11,593 bases of DNA from Pseudomonadota bacterium. Lineage in GTDB: Bacteria > Pseudomonadota > Gammaproteobacteria > Burkholderiales > Burkholderiaceae_C. A program made the position numbers and the translations under genes. Below are positions 670-11,347 of this stretch, one piece after another. Positions within the stretch are counted from its first letter, which is position 1. Each line of letters starts with the position of its first letter. The stretch is taken from the NCBI GenBank assembly GCA_030918015.1, contig JAUPTP010000028.1:1-11593 (forward strand), written 5' to 3'. Below the pieces are notes generated by a model. That model made no database searches, was not told the origin of the DNA, and saw only the letters and a list, made by a program, of their open reading frames with translations.

Positions 670-1728
670 ATGACCGTCGCCTTCCCCATCACCGACCGCA
701 AGATCCGCTTCGCCCTGGTGGGCTGCGGGCGCATCGCGAAGAACCATTTCGGCGCGCTGGCGCAGCATGCCGACCGCGCCGAGCTGGTGGCCGTCTGCGA
801 CAGGCTGCCCGAGCGCGCCGCGGCCGCCGCCGCGCAGACCGGCGCACGCGCCTTCACCTCGCTGGAGGCGATGCTGGCTGAAGTCGATGCCGACATCGTC
901 GTGCTCACCACGCCCAGCGGCCTGCATCCGCAGCAGGCCGTGCGCGCCGCGCGCGCCGGCCGCCACGTGCTCTCCGAGAAGCCGATGGCCACCAAGTGGG
1001 ATGAGGGCATGGCGATGGTGCGCGAGTGCCGCGACGCCGGCGTCAAGCTCTTCGTCGTCAAGCAGAACCGCCTGAACGCGACGATGCAGCTGCTCAAGAA
1101 GGCGATCGACGACAAGCGCTTCGGCCGCATCCACATGGTGACGGTCAACGTCTTCTGGACCCGGCCGCAGAGCTACTACGACGAGGCGCCGTGGCGCGGC
1201 CGCTGGGACATGGACGGCGGCGCCTTCATGAACCAGGCCAGCCATTACGTGGACATGGTCGACTGGCTGGTCGGCCCGGTCGACAACGTGCATGCCTACA
1301 CCGCGACGCAGGGCCGCGACATCGAGGCCGAGGATTCGGGCGTGATGAGCCTGCGCCTGCGCGCCGGGGGTCTCGCCAGCATCAACGTGACGATGCTGAC
1401 CTACCCGAAGAACCTCGAGGGCTCGATCACGGTGCTGGGCGAGCGCGGCACGGTGCGCATCGGCGGCGTGGCGGTCAACGACATCCAGCACTGGGAGTTC
1501 GACGCGCCCCGCCCCGAAGACGAGCAGATCAAGGCCGCCAGCTACGCCACCACCTCGGTCTACGGCTTCGGTCATCCGCTCTACTACGCCAACGTCATCG
1601 ACACGCTGCGCGGCGAGGCCCATGCCGAGGTCGACGGCTACAGCGGCCTGCGCTCGCTGGAAGTGCTGATCGCCGGCTACCGCTCGGCGCGCGACGGCGT
1701 GCGCGTCGGCCTGCCGCTGGTGTTCTGA
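670..1728 (+). CDS. wlbA: WlbA-type UDP-N-acetylglucosaminuronate 3-dehydrogenase (Gfo/Idh/MocA family)
   Basis: This 352-residue enzyme oxidises C3 of UDP-GlcNAc-uronate to the 3-keto sugar, using NAD+, as the first dedicated step towards UDP-2,3-diacetamido-2,3-dideoxyglucuronate and the mannuronate. The N-terminal Rossmann fold has [17 protein letters not shown] (residues 14-30). The family EKP motif is at 103-105 with the probable catalytic Lys104. The C-terminal substrate domain carries [17 protein letters not shown] with His192 and Asp195 of the HxxD motif. [21 protein letters not shown] and [11 protein letters not shown] are near-identical, from memory, to Bordetella WlbA. WlbA subfamilies differ in whether they recycle NAD with 2-oxoglutarate, and I cannot tell which type this is. 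There is no clear Shine-Dalgarno before ATG 670, but the start puts the Rossmann strand about 10 residues in, as expected. wlbB follows 28 bases later. Confidence 0.92.
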
Positions 1729-1756: not shown

Positions 1757-2341
1757 ATGGACGCACCCGCCTGGCACCACGACACCGCGATCATCGACGA
1801 CGGCGCCCAGCTCGGGCCCGGCACCCGGGTCTGGCACTTCAGCCATGTCTGCGCCGGCGCGCGCATCGGCGCGGGCTGCTCGCTCGGCCAGAACGTCTTC
1901 GTCGGCAACGACGTGGTGATCGGCGCGGGCGTGAAGATCCAGAACAACGTCTCGGTCTATGACGCGGTGACGCTGGAGGACGACGTCTTCTGCGGCCCCA
2001 GCGTCGTCTTCACCAACGTCTACAACCCGCGCGCGGCGGTGTCGCGCAAGAGCGAATACCTGCGCACCGTCGTGAAGCGCGGCGCCACGCTGGGCGCCAA
2101 CTGCACCCTCGTCTGCGGCACCACGGTGGGCGAGCACGCCTTCATCGGCGCCGGCAGCGTGGTCAACCGCGACGTGCCGGCCTTCGCGCTGATGGTCGGC
2201 GTGCCGGCCAGGCGCATCGGCTGGATGAGCCGCCACGGCGAGCGGCTGGAGCTGCCCTGGCGCGGCGAGGGCGAGGCGAGCTGCCCGGCGACGGGGGAGC
2301 GGTATCGGCTGAGGGGTGATGTGCTGACGCGGGTGGAGTGA
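1757..2341 (+). CDS. wlbB: WlbB/WbpD-type UDP-3-amino-sugar N-acetyltransferase
   Basis: This 194-residue left-handed beta-helix acetyltransferase transfers acetyl from acetyl-CoA to the 3-amino group of UDP-GlcNAc3NA, giving UDP-2,3-diacetamido-2,3-dideoxyglucuronate. Hexapeptide repeats run from about residue 10 to 140 (for example [20 protein letters not shown] at 37-56). The segments [20 protein letters not shown] and [14 protein letters not shown] (59-92) are hallmarks of the WbpD/WlbB group, followed by [20 protein letters not shown] and the closing [18 protein letters not shown] (147-164). Length and start agree with the family, and a clear GGAG precedes the ATG. It continues the wlb operon from wlbA. 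Its last codons carry the ribosome binding site of the next gene, the inserted ATPase. The final 25 or so residues are the least conserved part. Confidence 0.93.
2335..2338 (+). promoter_or_regulatory. Ribosome binding site of the inserted ATPase gene, inside wlbB
   Basis: GGAG lies in the last codons of wlbB, 6 bases before ATG 2345, and decides that start. The wlbB stop (2339-2341) lies between this site and the ATG, so ATPase translation is probably coupled to wlbB. Confidence 0.65.
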
Positions 2342-2344
2342 TTC

Positions 2345-3619
2345 ATGACGGACGAAGCCGACAACCTGTCACCAGCCATATCGCGCACGCGCCGGCCGGC
2401 CCGAGCCAAGAAACCGGCGGCTCCGCCGCGCCTGCAAGTCGAACATCTGGGCCCGATCCTGTCGGCCGATGTAACCTTCGGCGACCTGACCGTGATCGTC
2501 GGCCCGCAGGCCACTGGCAAGAGCATCTTCCTGCAAACACTCAAGTTGCTGATCGACCGCGATCACATTCACGACACTTTCCGGCATCACAACGTCAATG
2601 TCGCTGGACGCGCCGAGGCTTTTCTGGAAGGCTATTTTGGTGGTGGTATGGCCGGGGCCTGGACCGCGGACACCTCGGCGCTGGATTGGAACGGCAAGAA
2701 GATCAACTTACCGGACTATGCCGCCCCCGGAAAAACGCCCAAGAGTCGCATCAAGCACGAACGGCTTTTCTATATTCCTGCGCAGCGCGTCATGAGTCTG
2801 CCAGGCGGCGTGTCTCAGAATTTCGGCCAGTTCAATTACGGCGATCCCTACACGCTTCGTGCGTTCAGCGATGCCGTGCATGACCTGATCCAGAACGAGT
2901 TTGGCGCAAAGGGTGATCTGTTCCCGTCGCCACGCAAGCTCAACGACAGTCTTCGTGGCCCGATCCATCAGCATCTTTTCGGCGGCGGCAAGTTGCTCAT
3001 CGATGAATCGAACTTCACGAAACGTCTGGCGCTGCAGTTGAAAGGCCAATCCAACGCACTGGGGTTCCTGTCTTGGTCAGCCGGACAGCGGGAATTCACG
3101 CCTTTGCTGATGGGCTTGTACTGGCTGTGCCAAGTCCGCCGCTCTCGGCGCATGTCCGGTGCGAGTCAGGACGAGGAAATCGAATGGGTGGTGATCGAGG
3201 AGCCTGAAATGGGCCTGCACCCCCAGGGCATCTCCGCCGTGCTGCTGCTGGTGCTGGAATTGCTGCGGCGAGGCTATCGGGTCGTCATTTCGACACATTC
3301 ACCGGTCGTGCTGGAAATGATCTGGGCCTTACAGGAGTTCAAGCAGCTTGGGGCCACGGAAAAAGAGGTCCGCAACCTGTTTGGTCTGAAAGCGGAGGAT
3401 TCCGCCAAGAAACTGGCTCAGGCTGCCCTGTCGAAGGATTACCGCGTCTACTTCTTTGACCGCCAGAGCCCGGTCCGCGACATCTCGACACTGGACCCTG
3501 GGGCTCTGGAGGCTGCCGAATCAGAATGGGGAGGCATCACCGGCTTTTCGTCACGCGTGAACGCCACCATCGCAGCCGCCGTGAACCGCGCAGCGGCAGG
3601 CACGGGAGCCGCAAGCTGA
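2345..3619 (+). CDS. ABC/RecF-like AAA ATPase of an inserted two-gene cassette (AAA_15/AAA_21 type)
   Basis: The 424-residue protein is a soluble ATPase of the RecF/OLD/ABC-like group. After a basic, Pro/Ala-rich tail (1-28) comes strand LQVEHLGPILSADVTFGDL, then Walker A GPQATGKS (53-60), a Q-loop-like FYIPAQRVMSLPGG (142-155), an ABC-signature-like LSWSAGQRE (242-250), Walker B VVIEEPEMGLHP (282-293, catalytic Glu of the EEPE type) and the H-loop VISTHSPVVLE (314-324). About 100 residues follow with no recognisable TOPRIM motif, so it is not an OLD-type nuclease by itself. All catalytic motifs are intact. It starts 3 bases after wlbB and its stop overlaps the next start (TGATG). It is visibly less GC-rich than its neighbours (29 of 60 bases in 2521-2580, 34 of 60 in 2761-2820, against 45 of 60 in 4921-4980), which suggests transfer. 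No polysaccharide role is apparent. A defence or stress-sensor role is an inference from architecture only. Confidence 0.85.
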   Translation: MTDEADNLSPAISRTRRPARAKKPAAPPRLQVEHLGPILSADVTFGDLTVIVGPQATGKSIFLQTLKLLIDRDHIHDTFRHHNVNVAGRAEAFLEGYFGGGMAGAWTADTSALDWNGKKINLPDYAAPGKTPKSRIKHERLFYIPAQRVMSLPGGVSQNFGQFNYGDPYTLRAFSDAVHDLIQNEFGAKGDLFPSPRKLNDSLRGPIHQHLFGGGKLLIDESNFTKRLALQLKGQSNALGFLSWSAGQREFTPLLMGLYWLCQVRRSRRMSGASQDEEIEWVVIEEPEMGLHPQGISAVLLLVLELLRRGYRVVISTHSPVVLEMIWALQEFKQLGATEKEVRNLFGLKAEDSAKKLAQAALSKDYRVYFFDRQSPVRDISTLDPGALEAAESEWGGITGFSSRVNATIAAAVNRAAAGTGAAS

Positions 3620-4128
3620 TGCCCACCCGTCGCCAAGCCAGCGCTCGATCCGGGCAAGCCTCGTCCGACTTCGAGCACGCCTGCCGCCATGCGGAACTGG
3701 AGCCGCAACCCGGGCTGAGCGCCGTCAAGGGTGACTACCGTCCGGGCGTGGCGCTGAAGCCAGGTCACCGCCACACGGCCAGCATCGATCTGGATGCCTG
3801 CCTTCTGGCCAGCGAGCCCACGGCAGCCCGGTGGGACTACGGCATCGGAGTGCGCGGTGAGTCGGGCCAGGAAAGTCTGGTCTGGCTGGAAGCCCACCCG
3901 GCATCCAGCACAGGAGAAGTGCAGAAGATGCTCGACAAGTTGGCTTGGCTGAAAGGCAAGCTGAACCAGCCCGCCTTCGCGCATTTGCGTCGTCTCGAAC
4001 ACAAGGTCTCGGCCTACCGCTGGCTGGCCATGACCGGGGCCATCCGCATCCTGCCCCACAGCGCAGAAGCCAAGCGACTCGCCAAGGCAGGCCTGTCGTC
4101 TCCTCAGCGGCGCGTCGAACTGCCCTGA
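3619..4128 (+). CDS. Conserved-looking small protein partner of the AAA ATPase, function unknown
   Basis: This 169-residue protein starts at ATG 3619, sharing its first base with the ATPase stop codon (TGATG), so the two genes are translationally coupled and probably act together. A start at 3526 in the same frame would overlap the ATPase by 94 bases and is less likely. There is no signal peptide or membrane segment. After a polar tail (about 1-50) it has SIDLD (55-59), RWDYGIGV (71-78), SLVWLEAHPASS (86-97), EVQKMLDKLAWLKGKL (100-115) and a C-terminal SAYRWLAMTGAIRILPHS (131-148) followed by a basic KRLAKAGLSSPQRR. The order Asp73, then a hydrophobic strand ending Glu91-x-His93, loosely resembles a PD-(D/E)XK nuclease core with His in place of Lys, but this is speculative. 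I do not recognise the family. Its base composition is intermediate (41 of 60 GC in 3841-3900, 32 of 60 in 3901-3960). Confidence 0.75.
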   Translation: MPTRRQASARSGQASSDFEHACRHAELEPQPGLSAVKGDYRPGVALKPGHRHTASIDLDACLLASEPTAARWDYGIGVRGESGQESLVWLEAHPASSTGEVQKMLDKLAWLKGKLNQPAFAHLRRLEHKVSAYRWLAMTGAIRILPHSAEAKRLAKAGLSSPQRRVELP

Positions 4129-4162
4129 CGCCATGCCCCTTGCCACCGCGTTACGCCCATGA

Positions 4163-4318
4163 CGCTGGCCGGGCCGCGCTGGCACCGCGAGCGGCTTCAC
4201 CAGTTCGTCGGCAATCCCCTTTCCCTCGGCAGGCGAGCTGCGGGCGATGGACTGGGGCACGCCGCTGCTGCTGGCACGGCGGCCCTGGGTCGTGGCGCTG
4301 CTCGGGATGTGCCGCTGA
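4163..4318 (+). pseudogene. Possible 3' remnant of a displaced gene
   Basis: In the second forward frame an open stretch ends at TGA 4316-4318, 60 bases before wlbC. Its last 27 sense codons (4235-4315) have G or C in the third position in all but one (gca), a stronger coding signature than the first forward frame across the same bases. The peptide includes AGELRAMDWGTPLLLARRPW and a hydrophobic end. An in-frame stop at 4160-4162 and the lack of a convincing start and Shine-Dalgarno suggest a broken gene, perhaps a native gene disrupted when the ATPase cassette arrived. I do not recognise the peptide. The stretch may also simply be GC-rich non-coding DNA. Confidence 0.3.
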
Positions 4319-4378: not shown

Positions 4379-5503
4379 ATGCAATTCATCGACCTCAAGA
4401 CCCCCTACGCCGCGCTGAAGACCGACATCGACGCGGCGATCCATCGCGTGCTCGATCACGGCCAGTACATCATGGGGCCGGAGGTGAAGGCGCTCGAGGC
4501 CGCGCTGGCGACGTTCGCCGGCACGAAGCACTGCGTGACCGTCTCCAGCGGCACCGAGGCGCTGCTGATCGCGCTGATGGCGCTGGGCGTGAAGGCGGGC
4601 GACGAGGTGATCACCACGCCCTTCACCTTCGCCGCGACCGCCGAGGTGATCGCGCTGCTGGGCGCGCGCCCGGTCTTCGTCGACATCGAGCCCGAGACCT
4701 GCAACATCGATCCTCGCCTGATCGAGGCGGCGATCACGCCGAAGACGCGCGCGATCATGCCGGTGAGCCTGTACGGCCAGGTCGCCGACATGACTGACAT
4801 CAACGCGATCGCCGCGCGCCACGGCCTGCCGGTGGTGGAGGACGCGGCGCAGAGCTTCGGCGCCACCTACCAGGGCCGGCGCAGCGGCGCCACCAGCACG
4901 ATCGGCTGCACCAGCTTCTTCCCGAGCAAGCCGCTGGGCTGCTACGGCGACGGCGGCGCGCTCTTCACCGACGACGACGCGCTGGCCCAGGCCGCGCGCG
5001 AGATCCGGGTGCACGGCCAGAGCGCGCGCTACACGCACACCCGCGTCGGCGTGGGCGGACGCATGGACACGATCCAGTGCGCGGTCGTGCTGGCCAAGCT
5101 GCCGCGCTTCGAGTGGGAACTGCAGCGCCGGCGCGAGCTGGGCGCGCGCTACCACGCGCTGCTGGCGCCGCTGGCCGCACGCCATCCCGGCTTCGGCCTG
5201 CTGACCGTGCGGCCGGACCGCGACTGCGTCTGGGGACAGTACACCGTGTTCGTGCCGGAACGAGCCAAGGTGCAGGCCGCGCTGCAGGCCGCCGGCATCC
5301 CGACCGCCGTGCACTACCCCAGGCCGCTGCATCACCAGGCGGCCTACGCCGCCGGCTGCTGCCCGGACTGCTGCCCCGGCAGCCTGGACGCCGCCGCCCG
5401 CGTGATGAGCCTGCCGATGAGCCCGGACCTGACGGAAGCCGACCAGGACCGCGTCGTCGCGGCGCTGGCCGAAGCGCTGGCCGGGCTGGCCGCGGACGCC
5501 TGA
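4379..5503 (+). CDS. wlbC: WlbC/WbpE-type UDP-3-keto-sugar aminotransferase (DegT/DnrJ/EryC1 family)
   Basis: This 374-residue PLP enzyme transfers an amino group from glutamate to the 3-keto sugar made by WlbA, giving UDP-GlcNAc3NA for WlbB. The start MQFIDLKTPY matches the family N terminus, so ATG 4379 is preferred over an in-frame GTG at 4355. Visible are HGQYIMGPEV (27-36), the PLP phosphate loop SSGTEALLIAL (56-66), VITTPFTFAATAE (77-89), EDAAQSFGA (154-162) and the PLP lysine in SFFPSKPLGCYGDGG (Lys184). VHYPRPLH and VMSLPMSPDL lie near the C terminus. The order and sequence are close to Pseudomonas WbpE. It belongs to the same pathway as wlbA and wlbB but is separated from them by the inserted cassette. 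No Shine-Dalgarno is visible before 4379, and only weak promoter-like sequence (CAACAAT at 4363-4369). The flippase starts 11 bases downstream. Confidence 0.93.
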   Translation: MQFIDLKTPYAALKTDIDAAIHRVLDHGQYIMGPEVKALEAALATFAGTKHCVTVSSGTEALLIALMALGVKAGDEVITTPFTFAATAEVIALLGARPVFVDIEPETCNIDPRLIEAAITPKTRAIMPVSLYGQVADMTDINAIAARHGLPVVEDAAQSFGATYQGRRSGATSTIGCTSFFPSKPLGCYGDGGALFTDDDALAQAAREIRVHGQSARYTHTRVGVGGRMDTIQCAVVLAKLPRFEWELQRRRELGARYHALLAPLAARHPGFGLLTVRPDRDCVWGQYTVFVPERAKVQAALQAAGIPTAVHYPRPLHHQAAYAAGCCPDCCPGSLDAAARVMSLPMSPDLTEADQDRVVAALAEALAGLAADA

Positions 5504-9919: not shown

Positions 9920-11347
9920 ATGGCGGATCTCCTGGCAATGATGACGATGGCGTGGAGCGGCTTGACCCGGCTGTCGGCCCATGACGGCACGCGCACGGCC
10001 GCCGCACGCCTGGCCACCGGACGGCGTGTCAACCAGGCCAGCGATGATGCCGCCGGCCTGGCGATCTCCGAGCGGCTGCTCGCGACTTCACGGGCGCAAG
10101 GCGTGATCGGACGCGGCATCAACGAGGCCATCGGGCGCGTGCAGCAGGCCGATGCCGGCCTGACGCAGATTGCCGGCCTGATCCAGGACGCCCGCGACCT
10201 GGCCATCGAGTCGGGCAACGGTGCCCTGAAGGCATCGGACCGCGCCCGGCTGCAGACGAACTACGAGATGCTGCTTGCGCAGATCGACGCCACCGCCGCG
10301 GGCACGCGCCTGTTCGGACAAAGCCTGCTGATCGCCCCCCAGGAAAGCGACACGCCCGATCTGAACCGGGTCTTCGGCGAGTCCGGCCGCAGCCTGTGGC
10401 TGAACTCGGGCATCCGGCCGATTGCACGCATTCCGGCCGGCATGCGCAATGTGGAGATCGAAGTCGACGCGCTGGGCGCCGATGACGACCTGCAGATCTT
10501 CACCACCGACGGCCGCCACCTGCTCGGCACCCGGCTGGACGACATGGTCTGGCGGGCCAATCGCATCACCACCGGCGAGCAGGTGCGCGAGCGGGTGATG
10601 CTGCGCTCGCTGGGCTTTGCGCCGGGCGCGCATTACGACGACAGCGGCCTCCTCGACGGCAGCGCGGCCTTCGTCGATCCGGCGCTGGCGCTGGCCGGGG
10701 AGGCGGCGCTGCTGGAGACCAGCCTGGGCGGCATGACGCTGGGCTACAGCGGCGACGGCGATCATCAGGACGACGCGCCGAACGATGGCCGGGTCAGCGG
10801 CAGCGCGCGCCACGAGCTGCTGATGATCGGCGAGGTGACGCAGTCGCTGCTGGTCATGGTGGTGGGCTCAGGCTCCTTCGGAGCGCGCGCGCGCTGGACC
10901 GATGCCGACCCCACGACGGCGGGTTCGCTCGATGACGCCGGGCCGCGGGTGGTGCTGAGCGCCGATTTCGGCCAGGCGAGCCAAGGCATGACGCTGGCCC
11001 TCCTGCCGGCGGACCGTGCCGCGCTGGGGCTGTCAGGCAGCGGCATCGCCACGCAAGCCGCCGCACGATCGAGCCTGAGTGCGCTGGACCAGGCGCTGGA
11101 GACGGTGGGCAGCCACCGCGGACGCCTCGGCGCGCAGAGCCGTCGACTCGAACAGGCGCTCGGGCACTGCGAAGCCGCCGCCCCCCTGAACCAGTTCGCC
11201 CGCAGCCGCATCATCGATGCCGACATGGCCACCGAACTGGCGGCCCTGGCTCGGCAGCGACTGCGTGAGCAGATCGGCCCGGCCCTGCTGGGCCAGGCCA
11301 CGCTGATGCCTCGACAGGTGCTGGCGCTGTTGCTCGGGCACGGATGA
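9920..11347 (+). CDS. Divergent flagellin-like protein with an unrecognised middle domain
   Basis: This 475-residue protein has both conserved ends of flagellin. At the N terminus, RLATGRRVNQASDDAAGLAI (30-49) corresponds to RLSSGLRINSAKDDAAGQAI in FliC; 29 residues precede it here against 30 in E. coli, which supports ATG 9920. Then come INEAIGRVQQADAGL (67-81) and ARDLAIESGN. At the C terminus, ALDQALETVGSHRGRLGAQ (388-406), SRIIDADMATELAALAR (429-445) and LGQATLMPRQVLALL (457-471) match the D0/D1 helices. It would be exported by the flagellar type III apparatus and either polymerise in the filament or cap it. The middle (about 140-375) includes LQIFTTDGRHLLGTRLDD and HELLMIGEVTQSLLVMVV and is not recognised. 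Only one lysine (104) and one cysteine (417) occur, with four tryptophans, unusual for filament flagellins. No other flagellar gene is in the window. Confidence 0.82.
   Translation: MADLLAMMTMAWSGLTRLSAHDGTRTAAARLATGRRVNQASDDAAGLAISERLLATSRAQGVIGRGINEAIGRVQQADAGLTQIAGLIQDARDLAIESGNGALKASDRARLQTNYEMLLAQIDATAAGTRLFGQSLLIAPQESDTPDLNRVFGESGRSLWLNSGIRPIARIPAGMRNVEIEVDALGADDDLQIFTTDGRHLLGTRLDDMVWRANRITTGEQVRERVMLRSLGFAPGAHYDDSGLLDGSAAFVDPALALAGEAALLETSLGGMTLGYSGDGDHQDDAPNDGRVSGSARHELLMIGEVTQSLLVMVVGSGSFGARARWTDADPTTAGSLDDAGPRVVLSADFGQASQGMTLALLPADRAALGLSGSGIATQAAARSSLSALDQALETVGSHRGRLGAQSRRLEQALGHCEAAAPLNQFARSRIIDADMATELAALARQRLREQIGPALLGQATLMPRQVLALLLGHG

Follow-up and report, generated by a model that had tools for sequence, protein, structure and literature searches.

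The PDC-M56 gene pair, a candidate ATPase-nuclease defence module, lies between wlbB-like and wlbC-like genes of a sugar operon

Two adjacent genes lying between wlbB-like and wlbC-like genes were identified, by sequence matches to both proteins, as PDC-M56, a putative two-gene defence candidate (A and B) of PADLOC-DB. They are located in the window, the whole stretch of 11,593 nucleotides that was analysed, which comes from a Sphaerotilus-group bacterium. The assignment was judged by the matches, which span nearly the full length of both models, and by the adjacency of the genes on the same strand. This is most probably a defence pair, real and well conserved, which represents a catalogued candidate family and a described architectural theme. 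We put at roughly two in three the probability that PDC-M56 is an anti-phage switch in the manner of Septu and PARIS, with a PtuA-like ABC ATPase controlling a small predicted PD-(D/E)XK nuclease. The predicted effector fold, the embedding in mod-res operons and the swap site in wlb operons are new for PDC-M56. The features of the locus are these:

670-1728, plus strand: Gfo/Idh/MocA dehydrogenase (wlbA-like), from ORF and family match
1757-2341, plus strand: left flank, hexapeptide acyltransferase (wlbB-like), from ORF and family match
2345-3619, plus strand: ABC-type (SMC/Rad50/OLD-like) ATPase of 424 aa, PDC-M56A, a putative sensor or regulator
2501-2524, plus strand: Walker A GPQATGKS, residues 53-60 (G53, Q55, G58, K59 and S60 invariant in 80 aligned sequences)
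3077-3094, plus strand: signature-like SAGQRE, residues 245-250 (S245, A246, G247, Q248 and E250 invariant, R249 nearly so, in the 80 ATPases)
3188-3223, plus strand: Walker B region VVIEEPEMGLHP, residues 282-293, including EEPEMGLHP at 285-293 (E285, E286, E288, G290, L291 and H292 invariant in the 80 ATPases)
3290-3301, plus strand: H-loop STHS, residues 316-319 (S316 and H318 invariant in the 80 sequences)
3479-3535, plus strand: C-terminal motif DIS...WGG, residues 379-397, candidate partner-contact site
3619-4128, plus strand: small protein of 169 aa, PDC-M56B, predicted PD-(D/E)XK-like nuclease effector
3835-3897, plus strand: putative catalytic D73 ... E91-x-H93, from conservation and predicted model
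3937-3939, plus strand: putative catalytic K107, invariant in 81 sequences, on helix 99-115 of the predicted model
4159-4309, plus strand: remains of a broken membrane-type ORF (90 aa where intact), outside the pair, found by tblastn in two pieces
4379-5503, plus strand: right flank, DegT aminotransferase (wlbC-like), likely ATG at 4379, from ORF and family match

Both ORFs of the pair are open, and the TGATG junction and ATPase motifs were found where the first-pass annotation had placed them. The ATPase stop TGA (3617-3619) and the small-gene start ATG (3619-3621) overlap by 1 nt; the 169 aa of the small protein are counted from this ATG, and its reading frame extends upstream to 3526 in the mechanical ORF list. 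Only 3 nt separate the acyltransferase stop from the ATPase start, a spacing that suggests co-transcription with the wlbB-like gene. At the other end, about 250 nt that include the broken small ORF separate 4128 from the likely wlbC start. No promoter was found by consensus inside the cassette, and two terminator-like matches, on the minus strand, compare with 1.5 expected. The pair is less GC-rich than its flanks, as had been noticed: GC3 was 0.722 for the ATPase gene and 0.775 for the small gene vs 0.952 (wlbA), 0.964 (wlbB) and 0.957 (wlbC).

The row of plus-strand ORFs is consistent with a wlb-type surface-sugar operon, the wlb names being carried over from the first-pass annotation. Downstream of the DegT gene are ORFs that read as flippase-like and glycosyltransferase-like, and after the latter lies a 475-aa ORF (9920-11347, plus strand) whose sequence reads as the N-terminus of a flagellin; the arrangement could be a hint that a filament protein is glycosylated. 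Positions 1-600, on the minus strand, read as the N-terminal part of a lysyl-tRNA synthetase. The 90-aa membrane-type ORF that is broken in the window is intact in G011 (L075 6437-6709) and matched over 81 residues in G012; no PADLOC match to it was found.

The first-pass annotation knew of no named system that the pair would fit, and the partner family had appeared undescribed to it. The PADLOC search confirmed neither point. The ATPase matched PDC-M56A with an E-value of 3.6e-134 (profile 3-379 of 382), and the small protein matched PDC-M56B with an E-value of 2.4e-25 (profile 8-146 of 151), its sole PADLOC match at E ≤ 1. PDCs reportedly originate in the guilt-by-embedding study of Payne et al. 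(2024, bioRxiv). A literature search of main texts found no mention of PDC-M56 by name. PMC12988326 describes PDCs as putative candidates from a guilt-by-embedding study, most of which await validation.

Walker A, signature, Walker B and H-loop sequences are all present in the ATPase, which places it among the ABC-type ATPases of the SMC/Rad50/OLD group. Its match to the AriA model of PADLOC (1.7e-16) is far behind that to PDC-M56A. The best NCBIfam model was the MADS ATPase MAD3 (47.9 bits, E 1.1e-12), far below that model's cut-off of 420 bits, and PDC-M56A is a far better match. The NCBIfam PtuA model gave 13.2 bits where 500 is its cut-off, so the protein is not a PtuA by sequence model, and no PtuA model was present among its best 25 of 102 PADLOC matches. 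The DIS...WGG motif is invariant at D379, I380, S381, L383, W395, G396 and G397 in the 80 aligned ATPases, and we infer that it is a candidate site of contact with the small protein.

The small protein matched no Pfam or NCBIfam family. The first-pass view that it lacks a TOPRIM, HNH or DUF4435 domain was borne out by family search. A Pfam scan of 81 aligned members gave scattered weak matches; DUF7822 (best, 0.0018, 2/81) and an AHJR-like REase (0.13, 1/81) were too weak and were set aside. A profile search of PDB sequences retrieved no nuclease, and Foldseek with the predicted model found nothing at E ≤ 0.001 in the PDB or among viral models. The small protein is nevertheless predicted, from conservation and the structural model, to be a PD-(D/E)XK-like nuclease. 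Two acids, D73 and E91, are invariant in the 81 sequences; D73 lies before the second core strand of the model and E91-x-H93 at the end of the third. Position 93, two residues after the second acid, is H rather than K (H in at least 90% of sequences, R in P0055), and an invariant lysine, K107, is found on the helix that follows the third core strand. In lysine-migrated PD-(D/E)XK members the active-site lysine is on the next helix; our literature search on the migrated lysine found nothing. That the small protein merely shares this fold, as a structural or regulatory partner, is rather unlikely, since the most conserved residues, D73, E91 and K107, sit at the would-be active site.

PDC-M56 differs from several named systems. 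The Septu partner PtuB is an HNH protein, whereas the partner here is a predicted PD-(D/E)XK protein with PDC-M56B as its only PADLOC match and no Pfam family. In PARIS, AriB is a TOPRIM nuclease, and no such match was found for the small protein in Pfam or PADLOC. The type III CRISPR nucleases Card1, Can2 and Cdn1 share 4-13% identity with it; their CARF domain has no room in a 169-aa protein, and control here would come from the separate ATPase. The OLD-ABC ATPases are alike in concept. A 2026 survey (PMC12839542) reports them from BREX neighbourhoods, in pairs with nucleases of HNH, PD-(D/E)XK or PIN type, and proposes that such pairs are backup effectors against anti-restriction strategies. 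Those pairs are described for BREX and related loci; what they would have in common with PDC-M56 is the idea of an ATPase plus a PD-(D/E)XK nuclease that backs up a restriction-type system.

We scanned a small-protein alignment against 84,980 species genomes and obtained 34 loci. In 32 of these an ATPase relative (tblastn, 1e-5) lies directly upstream of the small gene, and the match is in pieces at L010 and L023. The first-pass annotation would have counted it as a refutation if the small protein had no homologues beside ATPases elsewhere, and this did not come true. The two loci that lack it are L009 and L025, and the L025 small gene has an in-frame stop. In the reverse search, ATPases at E ≤ 1e-60 were found in 12 family genomes and 3 order genomes, out of 399 in each set. 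The small gene was directly downstream in 14 of 14 distinct genomes (G000 counted once), two of which (G322 and G723) have an ATPase flagged for one stop within the match. Both genes were present in identical sets of genomes in the order (3/399) and in the genus (7/13); the order and family searches scored the first few candidates per genome and may therefore miss distant copies. The loci fall in Pseudomonadota, Myxococcota, Acidobacteriota, Verrucomicrobiota, Armatimonadota, Chloroflexota, Nitrospinota and Planctomycetota. A phage origin was considered and rejected, as no relative was found in viral contigs or phage records. One plasmid relative was found, in Opitutaceae TAV5, and it is distant (32%).

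The surroundings of the pair vary from locus to locus, and restriction genes are often close by. Four loci (L005, L006, L014 and L017) have a Type III methyltransferase on one side of it (PADLOC 1.2e-167, 1.7e-34 with only a C-terminal piece, 2.8e-173 and 4.5e-171, respectively) and a ResIII protein on the other (Pfam 1.2e-7, 1.2e-7, 6e-10 and 3.1e-8), with genes overlapping or nearly touching. Type I restriction genes precede it in L013, L016 and L018, with two other ORFs intervening in L016, and DrmMI- or IIG-like methyltransferases are upstream in L023 and L031. Other nearby defence families are DarG (L020), DruE (L021), a mad3-like ATPase (L027), HEC-01B (L034) and a PADLOC subtilase (L032). 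Counted over 28 of the 34 loci (four Sphaerotilus-group wlb-site loci, L008 and L033 were left out), a PADLOC family was present among the scanned neighbours at 14 and a restriction type at 9. PADLOC matches were found for 17 of 44 neighbour proteins, hand-chosen mostly for size and scanned at cut-offs that varied (1e-15, 1e-8 and 1e-20), vs 2 of 20 random distant ones (two-sided Fisher P = 0.02). The controls were genes at least about 5.5 kb away (22 drawn, the first 20 scanned), and the two that matched are the hsdR of the L013 system and a mad3-like ATPase in L006. The L006 region at 16084-17958 encodes a mad3/AriA-like ATPase (mad3 1.7e-52) at a distance of about 5.6 kb, which may make L006 a defence island that extends beyond the pair. 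Contrary contexts were also found: L012, L015 and L022 are beside metabolic genes and L029 is beside a histidine kinase.

The first-pass annotation had called for comparison with relatives, and had noted that a constant place in the wlb operons of all relatives would refute the module reading. The pair is not constant. It is present at wlbB-wlbC in 7 of 13 genus genomes (G000, G001, G006, G007, G009, G011 and G012) and missing from the wlb operons of four genus and seven outgroup genomes. In two of these genus operons (G004 and G010) nothing but a short spacer separates wlbB from wlbC. G008 carries Septu there (PADLOC PtuA 1.5e-146, PtuB 1.1e-42; L074 4363-6360, minus strand), and G003 has about 5.4 kb of genes that read as sugar-catabolic or regulatory (L073 5150-10481). 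By their translations the G003 genes read as an acetyltransferase, a LacI-type regulator, two sugar isomerase/epimerase-like proteins and an oxidoreductase. In G011 the pair is followed by Septu (PtuA 6.3e-142, PtuB 2.2e-41; L075 6800-8761, plus strand). Close wlbB and wlbC homologues are absent from G002 and G005, and wlbB adjoins wlbC in the outgroup genomes G013, G015, G019, G023, G025, G044 and G048.

The pair had been called a mobile defence or toxin-like module. The reading as an anti-phage-type ATPase-effector pair was supported, but mobility of its own was not: the window's cassette lacks mobility genes, and a search for direct repeats of at least 14 nt on its two sides gave none. The pattern of divergence fits exchange through the conserved flanking wlb genes; the cassette is likely passed on by homologous recombination there, not by its own transposase or integrase.

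Purifying selection acts on both genes in the seven genus copies (dN/dS 0.08-0.18 for the ATPase in 21/21 pairs, 0.12-0.30 for the small gene in 20/21, one being undefined). In 20 of 21 genome pairs, all but G011-G012, the ATPase had a higher dS than any of wlbA, wlbB and wlbC, and simple vertical inheritance with wlb is therefore rejected as the full story. Between G000 and G007, for instance, dS was 0.19, 0.17 and 0.21 for wlbA, wlbB and wlbC, 0.99 for the ATPase and 2.39 for the small gene, and identity changes abruptly near 2300 and 4300. Flank GC3 of about 0.95 compresses flank dS and may explain part of this contrast. Small-gene dS is not clearly above the flanks among G000, G011 and G012. 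Mosaic cases are harder to explain by flank GC3. Between G000 and G012, dS was 0.52 for the ATPase and 0.11 for the small gene. In the small-gene tree G007 branches outside the six remaining copies (99/93), whereas the G007 ATPase groups with G000, G011 and G012 (100/99), and these conflicting positions suggest a partner swap. The G007 copy (Sphaerotilus natans, L078 4606-6404) is 54-58% identical to the genus copies in the small protein and 76-82% in the ATPase. The ATPase tree unites the seven genus copies in a single clade (100/97), and the small-gene tree does so with weak support (89/55); one arrival followed by exchange is thus the simplest history, and not the only one.

Three other functions were weighed. 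A toxin-antitoxin-like module, with a nuclease toxin neutralised by the ATPase and kept by addiction, would account for the overlapping genes, the strict pairing, the decay of the lone L025 small gene, the DarG antitoxin neighbour in L020 and the distant plasmid relative. We consider it unlikely, given an ATPase of PtuA/AriA type, the repeated embedding in restriction operons, the Septu at the same wlbB-wlbC site in a sister genome, and the 6 of 13 genus genomes that lack the pair. A repair or genome-maintenance role, with a Rad50-like head and a nuclease as in SbcCD, is improbable: presence is patchy even within the genus, codon usage differs from that of neighbouring genes, the neighbours include defence genes, and the predicted ATPase model has no long coiled-coil arms (longest helix 21 residues).

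Domestication to regulate or remodel the surface-sugar operon would fit the site and the ATPase-tree clade shared by the seven genus copies, and the closeness to wlbB. Yet wlb operons without the pair remain intact, unrelated cargo also occupies the site, and none of the 30 loci outside the group has a wlbB or wlbC relative at 1e-5 (L022 alone has a distant wlbA-like gene), which makes this role very improbable.

An anti-phage switch would work as follows. ATPase and small protein would form a complex in which the ATPase holds the nuclease. The ATPase would sense some product of the phage; a product connected with loss of restriction is the most plausible trigger, given the mod-res and hsd contexts. 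On infection it would unleash the small protein, which would cut nucleic acid, and the outcome would be phage restriction or abortive infection. Two described systems offer parallels: in PARIS, AriA sequesters AriB and releases it on binding a phage protein such as Ocr (PMC12409363), and in one Septu the ATPase and HNH sites are both required and tRNA-Tyr is cleaved (PMC13096335). The OLD-ABC backup-effector picture fits PDC-M56, and the mod-res and hsd neighbours agree with it. We offer a bolder version only tentatively, as doubtful. PDC-M56 would be a restriction bodyguard native to Type III mod-res operons, whose ATPase senses restriction inhibitors from phages and fires a lysine-migrated PD-(D/E)XK killer nuclease; in Sphaerotilus it would be a recombination-swapped cartridge that alternates with Septu in a surface-glycan operon and whose halves are traded between strains.

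These findings take PDC-M56 from a bare catalogue entry to a testable two-part machine with named residues. It would bring a PD-(D/E)XK effector into the Septu/PARIS-style group of ATPase-controlled nucleases, and the mod-ATPase-nuclease-res operons point to a built-in second line in some restriction systems. At wlbB-wlbC, defence pairs replace each other within a housekeeping sugar operon, and the window's cassette carries no mobility gene; searches based on defence islands would not pick up such a swap route.
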